Source: Natrarchaeobaculum sulfurireducens | GTDB lineage: Archaea; Halobacteriota; Halobacteria; Halobacteriales; Natrialbaceae | Assembly (NCBI RefSeq): GCF_003430825.1 | Contig: NZ_CP024047.1 | Span: 2,604,001-2,668,000 of the forward strand | Reading direction: 5' to 3' | DNA length: 64,000 bases | In this document: piece after piece, positions 17,875-25,008 of the stretch | How the letters are laid out: every line of letters begins with the position of its first letter | How positions within the stretch are numbered: the first letter of the stretch is position 1 | Notes under the pieces: model-generated | The model's input: the letters and a program-made list of their open reading frames with translations, nothing else | What the model was told of the DNA's origin: nothing | Databases searched by the model: none | Program-made: the position numbers and the translations under genes

Positions 17875-19236
17875 TCATCGTGGGCCGAAAAACGTGTCGT
17901 CACCCGAGCCGTCGGCTGCGGGGTCGTCGTACCGGTGGCAGGCAACGACGTGTCCGCACGAGTCACCGCCGGTGTCAGAGACGGACTGAAACGACGGGGC
18001 GGAAGTTTCACACGGCGTCTCGAACGCCTCTGCGAGTTGCGTTCGGGCCGACGCGAGGTCGCCGTCGGCGACTCGCTCGAGTGCGTCTTCGAGGATGGCG
18101 TCCGCGTCGGGGTCCGAAAGCGGCGTTGGAACGCCGACTGCCTCCCGGATTGCCGACGCATTGGCACCAGTTTCGGTGGCGTCGTCGCGAGCGGGCGCGA
18201 CCCCGAGCGCTGCGAGGCCGTCGTCGGTCGAGTCGTCGATCGCGTCCTCGAGCCGAGCCCGAAGCACCATTACGGGCCGAAACTCGTCTGCCTCGAGATC
18301 GAACGCGTCGGGTGGGACGATACGTGGACAGCGCGTGTGGAACCGACAGCCCGACGGCGGGTCGATCGGCGAGGGGACTTCGCCTTCGAGGACGATTCGC
18401 TCGCCTACCCAGCATGGGTCGGGTTCGGGGAGTGCCGACAGCAGCGCCTCGGTGTAGGGGTGGACCTCGCGGGACCCCTCCCCGTGGCTACCGAAGAGGT
18501 CGGTCGGGGACCCCCGTTCGACGATCCGTCCGAGGTACATGACGGCGATCCGGTCGGAGACGTGTTCGATCACGGAGAGATCGTGACTGACGACGAGGAT
18601 CGAGAGGCCGAACTCGTCCTGGAGGTCCGCGAGCAGATTGAGGATACGGGCCTGTTCGCTGGCGTCGAGCGCCGAGACGGGTTCGTCACAGACGAGCACC
18701 TCGGGCTCGAGCGCGAGTGCGCGGGCAATCGCGATCCGCTGGCGCTGCCCGCCGGAGCACTCGTGGGGGTAGCGACTCGCGTAGGTGGCGTCCAGACCGA
18801 CGCACTCGAGCAGCTCCGCGATGCGCTCGTCCCGACGTGGCGCGGATACGAGTTCGTGGGCCTCGAGTGGCTCGGCCACGAGGGCTCGAACGGGCAACTG
18901 CGGGTTCAGGCTGGCGTCGGGGTTCTGAAAGAGGTACTGGACGCTCGTCCGGAACGCCTCGCGCTCACGACCTGTGAGGGTGGTGACGTCGGTACCGCGG
19001 TAGCTGACCGTCCCGGCCGTGGGCTCGAGCAGCCCGACCAGCGTCTGTGCGAGCGTCGTCTTGCCACAGCCGCTCTCGCCGACGAGTCCCAGCGTCTCGC
19101 CGGCCGCAAGTTCGAGGTCAACGCCGTCGACTGCGCGGACGGTTTCACCGCGGCCAAGCAGTCGCTCGAGGAGGCCGTCCGTCGTCTCGTAGTGCGTCTG
19201 CAGGTTCTCGGCGCGCAAGCGGACGTCGTCGGTCAT
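17875..19236 (-). CDS. Peptide/nickel-type ABC transporter ATPase (second, DppF/OppF-like), extended
   Basis: A 453-residue ABC ATPase: Walker A GLVGESGCGKTTLAQ, signature ECSGGQRQRIAIARAL, Walker B LVCDEPVSALDASEQ. The oligopeptide C-terminal module begins PSGCRFHTRCP but is split. Its usual closing part (SCGHVVACHRYD) comes only about 120 residues later, after an acidic insert (residues about 310-405). Normal members have about 330 residues. The ATG overlaps the stop of the first ATPase by 4 bp. The enzyme powers the permease pair encoded upstream. Confidence 0.9.
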   Translation of the reverse strand: MTDDVRLRAENLQTHYETTDGLLERLLGRGETVRAVDGVDLELAAGETLGLVGESGCGKTTLAQTLVGLLEPTAGTVSYRGTDVTTLTGREREAFRTSVQYLFQNPDASLNPQLPVRALVAEPLEAHELVSAPRRDERIAELLECVGLDATYASRYPHECSGGQRQRIAIARALALEPEVLVCDEPVSALDASEQARILNLLADLQDEFGLSILVVSHDLSVIEHVSDRIAVMYLGRIVERGSPTDLFGSHGEGSREVHPYTEALLSALPEPDPCWVGERIVLEGEVPSPIDPPSGCRFHTRCPRIVPPDAFDLEADEFRPVMVLRARLEDAIDDSTDDGLAALGVAPARDDATETGANASAIREAVGVPTPLSDPDADAILEDALERVADGDLASARTQLAEAFETPCETSAPSFQSVSDTGGDSCGHVVACHRYDDPAADGSGDDTFFGPR

Positions 19237-20303
19237 CGACGATCACCCCCAGTTTCCTCCTCCTCGCCGACGATTCGCACCTCGTACTCGAGGCCGCCGT
19301 CGAGGTCGCCCGTGTACTCGTGACAAGCGGCGACGTGAACGTCGGAGCCGCCGCTCGCCACGTCCGTCACGGGCCGTCCGGTATCAGCCTCGAGCAACGG
19401 TGGATCCCGCGTCGCACAGACTGCCTCGGCGTACGGACACCGCGGGTGAAATCGACAGCCGGTCGGACGGTCGACCGGATCGGGCATCGAACCGGGGATT
19501 GGTGGCAGCCGATCCCGTCCGTCGCCGATGCGCGGGATCGAGGCCATGAGACCCGCAGTGTAGGGGTGTTTGGGATCGTAGAACAGTTCCTCGACCGGCG
19601 CGCGTTCGACCGCATCGCCGGCGTAAAGCACCAGCGCCCGATCACAACAGGCTGCGACGACGCCCAGATCGTGGGTGACGAGCTGAATGGCCATCTCGTC
19701 GTCGCGTGCGAGGATCTCGAGCAACTCGAGCAGCTGTGCCTGGACGGTGACGTCGAGCCCGGTCGTGGGCTCGTCGAGGATCAGGAGGTCGGGGTCACAG
19801 GCGAGCGCCATGGCGACGGCGGCCCGCTGGAGCATCCCGCCGGAGAACTCGTGGGGGTAGTCGGCGTACCGGCTCGCTGATGCGGCGATTTCGACGCGCT
19901 CGAGGAGATCGATCGTCCGCTCGCGGGCTGTACGTCGGGAGACGGCTTCGTGGGCACGGATCGTCTCGGCGATCTGCTCGCCGACGGTGTAGACGGGGTT
20001 GAACGTCGCCGCTGCGTTCTGGAACGACATCGAGAGGCGATTGCCACGGATCGCACGGAGTTCCGAGGGCGAACACGAGAGTAGCTCCCGGCCGTCGAAC
20101 CGGATCGTCCCGTCGACGATCTCGCCGTCTCCGACGAGCCCGAGCAGTGCCAGGCTCGCGACGGTCTTCCCGGCCCCGCTCTCGCCGACGATCCCAAACG
20201 TCTCGCCGCGCTCGAGCCGGTAACTGAGGCCGTCGACGGCGCGGACGACGCCAGCGTCAGTGTAGAAGTCGACGGTGAGCGATTCGACCTCGAGCAGCGC
20301 CAC
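19233..20303 (-). CDS. Peptide/nickel-type ABC transporter ATPase (first, DppD/OppD-like)
   Basis: A 356-residue ABC ATPase: Walker [15 protein letters not shown], signature [16 protein letters not shown], Walker [15 protein letters not shown], and C-terminal oligopeptide module [15 protein letters not shown] with a closing VAACHEY. It pairs with the other ATPase of the operon, as in Dpp/Opp systems. The start overlaps the permease stop by one base. Confidence 0.93.
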
Positions 20304-21394
20304 TACCGACCCCTCCGTTCGGCGTCGTCGGTTCGTGGGTCGAGCGCGACGGCCACTCCATCACCGACGAGATTGATCGCGAGTACGAACAAGAACAGGG
20401 CCAGGCCTGGGAAGACGGTGACGTGCCAGTGGCCCTGGAGCAGGGCGGTCTGCCCGCGGGCGAGCATCGTCCCCCACTCGGGCGTCCCGGGGGGTAATCC
20501 GAGCCCCAAAAACCCGAGCGCGGCGGCCGCGAGGACGACCGTGCCGACGTTCAACGTCGCCTGGACGATCACCGGCGCGATCGCATTGGGGACGACGTGT
20601 CTGGTGAGGATCGTTCGAGTTGACGTTCCGAGCGCGCTCGAGGCGCGGACGTACTGGGCATCCCGAATCGAGAGGACCTCACCGCGCAGGAGTCGGGCGT
20701 ACGAGAGCCAGCCGGTGACGACGAGCGCGGCGACGACGTTCCAGAAGCCCTGCCCGAGGAGCGCGACGACGGCGATCGCCAGGACGAGAAACGGGAACGC
20801 ATAGAGCGCGTCGACGAGACGCATGAGCAGTTCGTCGACCCAGCCGCCGACGTACCCCGCGACCGCCCCGACGGGAATCCCGATTCCCAGGGCCAGTGCG
20901 ACTGCAATCGCGCCGATTGCCAGACTGTACCGACCGCCGACCAGCACACGCGAGAACACGTCTCGGCCCGCCCAGTCGGTCCCGAACGGGTGTGCGAGCG
21001 ACGGCCCGGCGTTCGGTGGTCCGACGTACATCGCCGCGGGATCGTACGGCGCCAGCGCGAACGGCTGGAGCGTGATTCGATACCCCATCGTCGCGACCTC
21101 GAGCGGCCGGGCGAAAACTGCGACCAGCGCCAGTCCGAAGACGAGCACCGCACCGAGGGTGGCCGACCGGTTCGTTCGAAACCGAGCCCAGACGCCCGCC
21201 GTCTGCGACCGTGATCCAGCGGCGTCGGTGGACGGAGTGGCCTCGGCAAGCGGCCTCGAGCGAGTCGACTCGAAGTCGTCGTCTCGAACAGCCCTCTCGC
21301 TGGTCGACGCACGGACCGTCGTTTCGTCGACGTCTCGGTCGAAGCCCTCGATCCGGATACGTCCGCGTCGCGTGGTTGGGCCTGGTCGGGTCAT
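20303..21394 (-). CDS. Peptide/nickel-type ABC transporter permease (DppC-like)
   Basis: A 363-residue membrane protein with about 6 helices. The N-terminal tail is charged and unusually long (about 70 residues before the first helix at FRTNRSATLGAVLVFG). The binding-protein-dependent permease signature is near IRDAQYVRASSALGTS. HPFGTDWAGRDVFSRVLVGG is typical of the DppC branch. Its ATG overlaps the DppB-like stop by 4 bp. Confidence 0.93.
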   Translation of the reverse strand: MTRPGPTTRRGRIRIEGFDRDVDETTVRASTSERAVRDDDFESTRSRPLAEATPSTDAAGSRSQTAGVWARFRTNRSATLGAVLVFGLALVAVFARPLEVATMGYRITLQPFALAPYDPAAMYVGPPNAGPSLAHPFGTDWAGRDVFSRVLVGGRYSLAIGAIAVALALGIGIPVGAVAGYVGGWVDELLMRLVDALYAFPFLVLAIAVVALLGQGFWNVVAALVVTGWLSYARLLRGEVLSIRDAQYVRASSALGTSTRTILTRHVVPNAIAPVIVQATLNVGTVVLAAAALGFLGLGLPPGTPEWGTMLARGQTALLQGHWHVTVFPGLALFLFVLAINLVGDGVAVALDPRTDDAERRGR

Positions 21395-22344
21395 CGGTCG
21401 TACCTGATTCGTGGATCGAGGACGGCGTAGACGATGTCGACGAGCAGATTTGCGACGACGACGGAAACCGCGATCAACAGCACCGCAGCCTGGACGACGG
21501 GGAAATCACGCTGGTCGATCGCCTCGACGAGCAACTGGCCCATCCCTGGCCAGGAGAACACCTGCTCGACGACGACGGCACCGTCGACGAGAAACGCGAT
21601 CTGTAAGCCAGTGACGGTGACGACCGCGGCCAGCGAGTTCCGAAGGACGTGTTTCAGAAGTACCGTCCGCTCGCGAAGCCCCCTCGCGCGGGCAGCCCGG
21701 ACGTACTCTTTCTCGAGTTCACGACGCATCGACGCGCGTAGCAGTCGCATAACCAGGGCGGCCGAGGCCGCCGCCAACGTGAGCGTCGGCAACAGCATAA
21801 ACCACAGCATCTCGAGGCTCAGCAAGGACGCGTCGGGCGGCGTCACTCGGACCCAACCCAGCTGGACGCCGAAGACGAACAGAAGGACGAGCCCGAGCCA
21901 GAAGTTCGGCGTCGCGATCGCAGCCAGGGCGGCGAGACGACCGACTTCGTCGGCGGTTCGGCTGGCGGTGGTCGCCGCGAGTACACCCGCAGGAATGCCA
22001 ACGGCGAGCGAGACGACCCACGCGGAAAGCCCGAGCAGGAGCGTCGCTGGCAAGCGCTCGGCGATCGTGGCCTCGACGTCGCGGCCGGTGATCGGGGACT
22101 CACCGAACTCCAGAAAGAGCACGTCGTGTACCCAGCCGAGATACTGCTGCCAGACGGGATCGTCGAAGCCGTACTCCGTTCGCAGGTCGTCTCGAACTGC
22201 TGGATCGATCCCTTCGAACCCGACGAGGACGTCGATCGGATCGCCAGGCGCGAGGTGGAGTAGCCCGAACGTAATCGCCGACACACCGACCAGTACCGGC
22301 ATTGCGAGCAGCGTTCGTTCGAGAACGTACTTTCCAAGCGCCAT
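21391..22344 (-). CDS. Peptide/nickel-type ABC transporter permease (DppB-like)
   Basis: A 317-residue permease with 6 helices. The N-terminus LERTLLAMPVLVGVSAITFG followed by LAPGDPIDVL is characteristic of DppB. The cytoplasmic EAA-like loop is EKEYVRAARARGLRERTVL. It begins 21 bp after the substrate-binding protein gene. Confidence 0.94.
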   Translation of the reverse strand: MALGKYVLERTLLAMPVLVGVSAITFGLLHLAPGDPIDVLVGFEGIDPAVRDDLRTEYGFDDPVWQQYLGWVHDVLFLEFGESPITGRDVEATIAERLPATLLLGLSAWVVSLAVGIPAGVLAATTASRTADEVGRLAALAAIATPNFWLGLVLLFVFGVQLGWVRVTPPDASLLSLEMLWFMLLPTLTLAAASAALVMRLLRASMRRELEKEYVRAARARGLRERTVLLKHVLRNSLAAVVTVTGLQIAFLVDGAVVVEQVFSWPGMGQLLVEAIDQRDFPVVQAAVLLIAVSVVVANLLVDIVYAVLDPRIRYDR

Positions 22345-22365: not shown

Positions 22366-24018
22366 TCAACCGAAGAACTCGTCGAGGATATGCGCTTCGA
22401 ACGCCGGATCGACGAACGACTCGAGCAGCGGTGGCACCGGCGTGTAGGCGACGGTCCCAGAACCGGCGTAGACGGTCTCGACGATCCGGTCGCGCGGGAG
22501 GAGACGGTCGATTCCCCGGCGAACGTCGACCTCGTCGAACGGTGCGAGGTAGGTCGGATAGATGAGGAAGTCGTACTGACCGGCGACGGTTCGCTCGACG
22601 CCGTACGTCTCGTCGCTCGCGAGTTGGTCGACGCTCTCGGCGGTGAGTCCTGTCGCAACGTCGATCTCGCCAGCCTCGAGTGCGGCCTGTCTGGCGGCCG
22701 CATCGGTAAGAACCCGCAGGCGGATCGTCTCGACCGGCTGGCTGTCGACGCCGCCCTCGTCGACAGCCCAGTGATCTTCGAACCGCTCGAGGTCCCAGTA
22801 TTCGCCGCTCGACTGGCCTGCGAACTGGTAGGGTCCGGTTCCGACCGGCGTCTCGACGAGGTCGACGTCGCCGTCCTCGCCGGCCGCAAGCGGGACGATC
22901 GGCACGTTGGCGGACGTCTCGAACGGCCCGTACGGCTCCGTGAGGCTGATCTCGAGCGTCGAGTCATCGAGCACGTCGACGGCGTCGAGCCACTCGAAAA
23001 CGTCGGCCTCGCGTGGCGTCCCGTCGTAGCGCTCGAGGGAGAACTGGACGTGCTCGGCGGTGAGCGACTCGCCGTTGTGGAAGGTCACGTCCGATCGCAA
23101 GTCGAAGCGATACGTCGTTTCGTCGAGTCGCTCCCAGTCGGTGGCGAGTTGTGGCCGAGGCGTCCCGTCGAAGTCGACGCCGAGGAGCCCCTCATAAAGA
23201 AGCGTCGTCGCCATATTCGACGTGGTGTCGTGCATCTGGACCGGGTCAGTGTTCGAGATCGACGCGATTGCATCGCCGACGAGTCGGTCGGTGTTCGAGA
23301 TCGAGACGGCGGTTTCAGCGTACGGAGCGAAGACGGACTCGTACTCGCTGCCCGGCAACGGATAGCTCCGCCAGTCGTCGACGACGTCGCGCCGGTAGAC
23401 GGTAGCCGATTCGCCGAACCGAACGATCGACACGGGGGCCCGACGGACGAGTTCCTCCTGAAGCTCCGCGTACAGCTCCCGCCGATGCGTCTCGTCTGAC
23501 TCGGCAAGGCCAGCCTCGAGTAGTTCGTCGACGGTCTCGCTTTCGAAGTGGTTGAAGTTGAGACCGGACGGGGCGGCCTTTTCGGAGTGAAACAGCGGCT
23601 CGAGGTACGTGTGCGGATCCCAGCCGCCGCTGACGTCGAGCGTGACGAGGGCGTTTTCCTCGCTGTCGGCCATACTGAAACAGAGATCCTGGTACTGACC
23701 CCACTCGAGTTGCTCGAACGAGACGTCGAACAACCCCGTCTCGTTCAGTTCCTGCTGGACGAGCTGGGCCCACCGGACCCGCTCGTCGTTCTCGACGTTC
23801 GCGTAGATCGTCGTCTCGACCGGCGGATCGACGCCCGCCGCCTCGAGGCCGCGCTCGACGAGTGCAATCGCCTCGTCGTCAGCCCCCTCGCTGTCGGAGC
23901 GAGTCTCGTTCTCGTCGGCAGTCACGCAGCCAGCCAGCCCGACGGTTACGGCGGCACCGATCCGACTCAGAACCGATCGTCGGCTCCCACGCCGCCTCCA
24001 TCCCTCCGACGCATCCAT
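22366..24018 (-). CDS. Tat-exported lipoprotein, family-5 solute-binding protein with swapped halves
   Basis: A 550-residue protein. The signal holds SRRSVLSRIG, a twin-arginine motif, then GLAGC (lipid Cys31). Residues about 48-235 match what is normally the C-terminal part of SBP_bac_5/DppA proteins: ALVERGLEAAG, QLVQQEL, WDPHTYLEPLF, VDELLEAG, RRELYAELQEELVRRAP. Residues about 250-550 match the usual N-terminal part: LLYEGLLGVDFDG, TYRFDLRSDVTFHNGESLTA, VGTGPYQF, ALEAGEIDVATG, PFDEVDVRRGIDRLLPRD. The order is therefore circularly permuted. It heads the transporter operon and probably captures peptides or a nickel-type ligand outside the cell. A TATA element lies at 24042-24051. Confidence 0.88.
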   Translation of the reverse strand: MDASEGWRRRGSRRSVLSRIGAAVTVGLAGCVTADENETRSDSEGADDEAIALVERGLEAAGVDPPVETTIYANVENDERVRWAQLVQQELNETGLFDVSFEQLEWGQYQDLCFSMADSEENALVTLDVSGGWDPHTYLEPLFHSEKAAPSGLNFNHFESETVDELLEAGLAESDETHRRELYAELQEELVRRAPVSIVRFGESATVYRRDVVDDWRSYPLPGSEYESVFAPYAETAVSISNTDRLVGDAIASISNTDPVQMHDTTSNMATTLLYEGLLGVDFDGTPRPQLATDWERLDETTYRFDLRSDVTFHNGESLTAEHVQFSLERYDGTPREADVFEWLDAVDVLDDSTLEISLTEPYGPFETSANVPIVPLAAGEDGDVDLVETPVGTGPYQFAGQSSGEYWDLERFEDHWAVDEGGVDSQPVETIRLRVLTDAAARQAALEAGEIDVATGLTAESVDQLASDETYGVERTVAGQYDFLIYPTYLAPFDEVDVRRGIDRLLPRDRIVETVYAGSGTVAYTPVPPLLESFVDPAFEAHILDEFFG

Positions 24019-24246: not shown

Positions 24247-24816
24247 TCAGTCGTCGCCAGTCTCGTCGACGATCACGACGTCACCGTCGACGACGTCGAC
24301 GTTGATCAGTGTCTTGACGTCGTAGCCCGCGTCGTCGACTTTGTTCTCACCGCCGACCTTCTTGATCACCGCGACGGTGTCGACGACTTCGGCCCCGATA
24401 CCGTCGAGCGCCTCGAGCACCGAAGCGAGCGTCCCGCCCGTCGAGAGCACGTCGTCGATGACGAGGACGCGTTCGCCCTCGGTAACGTCGTTGATGTACA
24501 TCTCGTTTTCGGAGTAACCGGTCTGCTGAGAGATGGCGACCTCGTGTTCGAGCCCGTACTCGCGTTTACGGATGACGGTCAGCGGAATGTCGGTCATTAG
24601 CGAGACGGCCGTCGAGATGTGAATGCCCATCGCCGCCGGCGTGACGATCCGGTCGACGTCCTCGAGTTTCGCCTTGCGGATGATTCGGATGACGATCTCG
24701 CGAAGCAGACCAGGGTCGAGTTTCGGCACCCCGTCGCTGATCGGGTGTACAAAGTAGTGATAGCCGTTTTTCTCGACGATCGGCGCCTCGAGAAGCGACT
24801 GCTTCAACTGATCCAT
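24247..24816 (-). CDS. hpt: Hypoxanthine/guanine phosphoribosyltransferase
   Basis: A 189-residue type I phosphoribosyltransferase for purine salvage. The PRPP-binding loop is [17 protein letters not shown], and the start ([20 protein letters not shown]) matches archaeal Hpt proteins. ATG 24816 is chosen at the start of similarity. A TTTTAC element about 25 nt upstream (around 24838-24844, minus strand) suggests a leaderless start. Confidence 0.92.
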
Positions 24817-25008
24817 GTCGCAGGTGGGGTGGAAGCGAAGTAAAAGGTGACGATCCGGTCGACGGCGTGTGAGCGGCGATACCAGCCCGCGAGCCACTTC
24901 GGGAGGTCACGAGCGACCCGGCCAGTGCGGCCGGTTTCGTGGCCGCTCGAGCAGTCGGTCGAACAGCAGACGGCAACCCAGCCCCACCAGTCAGACAGCG
25001 GTCGGTCG

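Follow-up and report, generated by a model that had tools for sequence, protein, structure and literature searches.

Does the gene running from position 24018 down to 22366 (minus strand, stop included) of the 64,000-nucleotide stretch of the Natrarchaeobaculum sulfurireducens genome analyzed here, which we call the window, encode a solute-binding protein (SBP) whose two parts have changed places, and if so, how did this order come about? The preliminary description of the locus had proposed a circularly permuted DppA-type protein with its C-terminal segment first, directly behind a Tat/lipoprotein signal and without a frameshift, in an intact operon. The gene translates into 550 residues without an internal stop or frameshift, and residues 13–31 (RRSVLSRIGAAVTVGLAGC) read as a Tat-type lipoprotein signal. 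This signal is followed by the approximately 190 residues that normally form the C-terminal part of such a protein and then by the approximately 305 residues that normally form its N-terminal part. The features of the gene and its neighbors are as follows.

23926..24018, minus strand: Tat-type signal peptide and lipobox, residues 1–31 (ending RRSVLSRIGAAVTVGLAGC), from the translation; RR and LAGC are invariant in comparison with two orthologues.
23878..23925, minus strand: short tether from the lipid-anchored Cys31 to the new N-terminal segment, residues 32–47, from the translation; varies among orthologues.
23314..23877, minus strand: normally C-terminal segment, residues 48–235, comprising most of lobe II and the last part of lobe I; profile columns 289–466, 5u4o chain 354–485.
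23284..23313, minus strand: short junction between the former C- and N-termini, about residues 236–245, flanked by the two matched stretches; variable among orthologues.
22369..23283, minus strand: normally N-terminal segment, residues 246–550, comprising the rest of lobe I and the first ~60 residues of lobe II; PF00496 profile 2–256, profile columns 11–300.
21391..22344, minus strand: DppB-type permease, 317 aa (PF00528 BPD_transp_1 and PF19300), starting 21 bases past the SBP stop.
20303..21394, minus strand: DppC-type permease, 363 aa (PF00528).
19233..20303, minus strand: DppD-type ATPase, 356 aa (PF00005 and PF08352 oligo_HPY).
17875..19236, minus strand: DppF-type ATPase, 453 aa (PF00005 and PF08352).
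24247..24897, minus strand: phosphoribosyltransferase (PRT) of the archaeal hypoxanthine/guanine type, used as a locus marker (NCBIfam HPT_Archaea, 248 bits, cut-off 200).

The sole Pfam match of the window protein, SBP_bac_5 (PF00496), scores 202.9 bits against a cut-off of 32.4, and its NCBIfam matches are all family-5 models of the peptide/nickel/glutathione type. PF00496 matches in two pieces, with residues 287–537 corresponding to profile positions 2–256 and a stretch upstream of these to positions 266–365. The best solved relative, 5u4o, aligns in the same swapped manner (residues 251–530 to chain 48–331 and residues 58–195 to chain 354–485), as does a custom profile of 477 columns built from 28 canonical haloarchaeal SBPs, in which columns 289–466 come first (98.7 bits) and columns 11–300 second (273.2 bits). 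A whole canonical SBP is thus represented with almost nothing missing, but the C-terminal part lies ahead of the N-terminal part instead of in the canonical N-to-C order, and no canonical SBP was found to match it co-linearly over the full length. Identity to the canonical SBP L081 is 40% for residues 48–235, compared with its C-terminal part, and 44% for residues 246–550, compared with its N-terminal part. Compared by eye with another canonical SBP, L020, the window protein ends in ...FVDPAFEAHILDEFFG (canonical FTSEEFNQQMGEEYLG) and its C-terminal part restarts at DDEAIALVERGLEAAG (canonical YNQEKANTLLEEGFANS), which puts the break neatly in the loop preceding one helix. Orthologues that are co-linear with the window protein over its whole length occur in Salinadaptatus halalkaliphilus (67% identity) and Natrarchaeobius chitinivorans (62%); given these, the swapped order is far beyond chance. 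At the level of sequence, the proposal of a circularly permuted family-5 SBP is confirmed, including its placement behind the signal in an uninterrupted frame.

The neighboring genes fit a functional protein. Two BPD_transp_1 permeases and two ATPases combining ABC_tran with oligo_HPY are adjacent to the SBP gene on the same strand, so that the operon reads as an intact, standard Dpp/Opp importer, as had been described. Both halves of the SBP gene are under purifying selection, with dN/dS of about 0.27–0.35 for the whole gene and 0.19–0.38 for single halves (Nei-Gojobori; rough values, as synonymous differences are high and GC-biased). The gene very probably encodes a working, lipid-anchored SBP of a Dpp/Opp-type, peptide-class ABC importer with a circularly permuted chain. 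Homology of both halves suggests that this chain would still fold into the normal two-lobed trap. AlphaFold, run on an alignment of only three sequences, returned a model of the window protein with pLDDT 36 and pTM 0.27; relatives to enlarge this alignment were sought in viral contigs, where none were found. When the PDB was searched by sequence with the window protein and two bacterial permuted SBPs, the best chains matched the canonical N-terminal part and none covered the permuted order.

The position of the cut would have consequences for the lipid anchor. In E. coli MppA, domain 1 consists of residues 23–285 and 509–540 and domain 2 of residues 288–506 (PMC6022919); in pneumococcal AliD, lobe 2 corresponds to domain III, residues 297–582 (PMC11192437). 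Mapped to mature DppA, the cut of the window protein and its like (class A, below) falls at about 320 and that of a second group (class B) at about 340, both inside lobe II, and the two cuts fall in the loops on either side of one helix of that lobe. Because the cut lies inside lobe II, the new N-terminus and with it the lipid anchor should shift from lobe I to lobe II; the earlier suggestion that the anchor moves to another face of the fold is thereby upheld, as far as published lobe boundaries can tell. The permuted chain would start in lobe II, pass once through all of lobe I and end in lobe II, making lobe I a continuous inserted lobe in which a short linker connects the old termini, both of which belong to this lobe. 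We infer that hinge crossings would still number two and that it is the anchor lobe that changes. The layout of a tether after the lipobox Cys is repeated in other permuted SBPs.

Docking may well be indifferent to chain order. The scoop of E. coli DppB enters the cleft between the DppA lobes and touches both (PMC12136057), so docking should need only a tether of sufficient reach and no given order of the chain. The DppBC-like permease would be expected to receive the ligand from the permuted SBP. In bacterial class B proteins the signal peptides are ordinary non-lipoprotein ones, apparently without a lipobox, which makes the relocated anchor a consequence in the anchored forms and not a general cause of permutation.

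A search of haloarchaea for the same order, which had been put forward as a check, placed the window protein within a larger set. Of 391 haloarchaeal genomes sampled, 35 encode a full-length protein with its order (class A); 33 of these belong to the same family as the window's genome and two to another. The host genome itself holds eight family-5 SBP genes: that of the window, three permuted class B genes (L004, L007 and L008, with a cut point that differs from the window's by profile) and four canonical ones. Class B is found in many haloarchaea and on alphaproteobacterial plasmids, plasmids being the bacterial side of this search. By profile, the permuted order is present on plasmids of Nitratireductor, Neorhizobium, Ketogulonicigenium and Maritalea; Microvirga and Roseomonas plasmids encode full-length class B relatives, and a protein from a Halalkalicoccus jeotgali plasmid shares 38% identity with the Nitratireductor class B protein over 98% of its length. 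A third group, class C (found via L036), has permuted members in 24 of the 242 haloarchaeal genomes, and canonical relatives of L036 exist at 52–59% identity. In total, 79 distinct permuted SBPs (one cut by the end of its locus) and 85 canonical SBPs were collected. By profile, the cut lies before the helix in class A and after it in classes B and C. Family 5 includes several groups that were permuted separately, that of the window protein among them; two are common in haloarchaea, and a third is also alphaproteobacterial.

The surroundings of these genes vary. Four canonical loci (L081–L084) show the same gene order as the window, and their permease B is 52–60% identical to that of the window, against 30–37% for class B operons. 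Many class A and class C operons retain a purine-type PRT gene beside them; that of the window also scores above the cut-off of an adenine-PRT subfamily model. The PRT may hint at the substrate or may be a mere marker of an old locus, and its retention makes a purine-related substrate worth testing besides peptides. Class B operons often adjoin genes for peptidases (M20, M28, M81, TldD) or hydantoinase/oxoprolinase (L073–L076, L079, L080), which suggests peptide-like substrates. Two class B genes of the host genome, L007/L092 (G000 C3:2136908-2138524) and L008/L093 (C3:1719032-1720006 and upstream), may be orphan SBPs, as nothing within about 6 kb of them matches the permeases or ATPases of the window. 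G117 and G175 (L186, L204) have both kinds at one locus: some 9–10 kb separate a permuted class C SBP and its permeases from an operon, on the other strand, with a more distant canonical SBP. In G157 (C1, L192 6595–8001) a permuted class B-like SBP, truncated where the sequence of its locus ends, is divergent beside a canonical SBP of the class C family. One class A locus (L157, G233 C5:155005-156580) is split into two open frames, one for each half, of 276 and 343 aa, and is either a broken copy or a sequencing error.

How the order changed is best seen in the clearest pair of loci, which come from different genera of one family: G144 (L136/L195) carries a permuted SBP and G169 (L149/L193) a canonical one. 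The two SBPs are sisters with support of 100/100 (1.0 and 0.96 for each half alone), and their halves are 74.6% and 75.8% identical in opposite order. The operons match gene by gene, with identities of 86% for the PRT, 86% for permease B, 90% for permease C, and 86% and 73% for the ATPases. At the DNA level (stretches K and P), the upstream region and signal peptide align (K 145–325 with P 145–328), the bodies are exchanged (K 418–1628 with P 946–2156, K 1668–2075 with P 384–794), and alignment resumes in the downstream flank, where the permease gene begins (K 2257–2355 with P 2247–2345). The difference between the two loci is an in-place swap involving no foreign gene.

This bears on the possibility that a C-terminal fragment of one SBP gene was fused ahead of an N-terminal fragment of another paralogue. 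Fission and fusion is known for other permuted proteins (PMC3320104), and the host genome offers at least seven other family-5 SBP genes as possible donors. However, the halves of the window protein (P0001) share their nearest relatives, permuted L155/L156/L170 and canonical L020/L158, at similar identities (46–49% for the N part, 42–44% for the C part), and the trees built from either half alone agree on a group of 47 proteins, 36 permuted and 11 canonical. Descent of both halves from one kind of canonical SBP is thereby shown, and in the L193/L195 pair a single orthologue at the corresponding locus matches both halves at 75–76% identity. A chimeric origin is largely refuted and we regard it as very unlikely.

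A single origin of the permuted order, inherited by all permuted family-5 SBPs, is contradicted by trees in which permuted sequences were restored to canonical order on profile columns, with junction columns dropped. Permuted and canonical forms are interleaved in these trees: in a 92-row tree the permuted/canonical label needs seven changes, four of them forced by well-supported branches, and the class C tree shows 4–5 order changes in bootstrap trees. In AU tests, one clade of class A and class B permuted forms was rejected (p = 7.9e-27), as was one clade of class C permuted forms (p = 4e-7); as the groups were partly named after seeing a first tree, these p-values are somewhat optimistic, but the log-likelihood gaps are large (102 and 98 units). 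A single clade of class A permuted forms alone was not rejected (p = 0.137), which speaks for a single origin there, and we therefore do not claim several origins within class A. The cuts also differ, lying on opposite sides of the helix in class A and in classes B and C. Only repeated restoration of the canonical order, itself no less remarkable, could save a family-wide single origin, which is otherwise refuted and highly improbable. Gene decay and errors of assembly or annotation can be dismissed as explanations of the window gene: the split-frame relative in G233 suggests that individual copies may break, but independent assemblies refute this reading for the window gene (35 full-length co-linear copies in independent genomes and 24 of class C, dN/dS of about 0.2–0.4, an intact operon).

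The window permutation is one of several separate order switches in family 5. It would have arisen within the gene body, between an unchanged signal peptide upstream and an unchanged permease gene downstream, most likely when the body behind the signal peptide was duplicated in tandem and then trimmed at both ends. We favor this route because it is the standard model (PMC3320104) and because the flanks are preserved; no intermediate with a duplicated body was found among the collected loci. Canonical outgroups imply for class C either one gain and several reversals or several gains, and the shared cut position leans toward reversals. A wider reading, possible though somewhat short of probable, is that chain order in family 5 is switchable, with at least three permutations at two neighboring loops of lobe II, at least one return to canonical order in haloarchaea, conserved operons and a permease that takes either form.

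Natural circular permutation is usually viewed as an ancient link between distant proteins. The family-5 cases amount to a repeated topology switch in a very common transporter family, which annotation at the family level hides behind a single Pfam hit and the name “ABC transporter substrate-binding protein”, and order swaps within one family are a natural experiment on whether chain order matters for the SBP fold. Operons whose permeases are 86–90% identical and which occur with both SBP orders are near-matched natural controls, so that the L195/L193 pair allows a test of how folding, ligand capture and docking depend on the order of the chain and the place of the anchor.

Canonical family-5 or cluster C SBPs include E. 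coli DppA, OppA, NikA and GsiB. The window protein resembles canonical cluster C SBPs in profile (PF00496) and operon type (two BPD_transp_1 permeases, two oligo_HPY ATPases), but differs from them in having the C-part before the N-part and a predicted anchor on lobe II rather than lobe I. The preliminary description knew of no named family with this order. This stands for family 5, where no report of permuted SBPs was found in the open-access papers searched (the subject of one paper on ABC transporters, PMC3688454, is permeases), but not for SBPs at large: TpMglB-2 (Tp0684) of Treponema pallidum, assigned to “Type Ic / Cluster Bc”, is a membrane-tethered, naturally permuted SBP with a crystal structure (PMC4990184). 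Both are natural circular permutations of a membrane-tethered SBP. TpMglB-2, however, has a sugar-binding Type I/cluster B fold and another cut, which adds a fourth hinge cross-over, and its type occurs mostly in treponemes and Gram-positive bacteria (PMC4990184); the window protein, with PF00496 as its only Pfam match, does not have an MglB-like cluster B sequence. DNA methyltransferases and swaposins are further natural permutations, explained by duplication and trimming (PMC3320104). They are unrelated proteins without a secreted signal to preserve, whereas the switch described here took place inside one operon, between orthologues that are about 75% identical.
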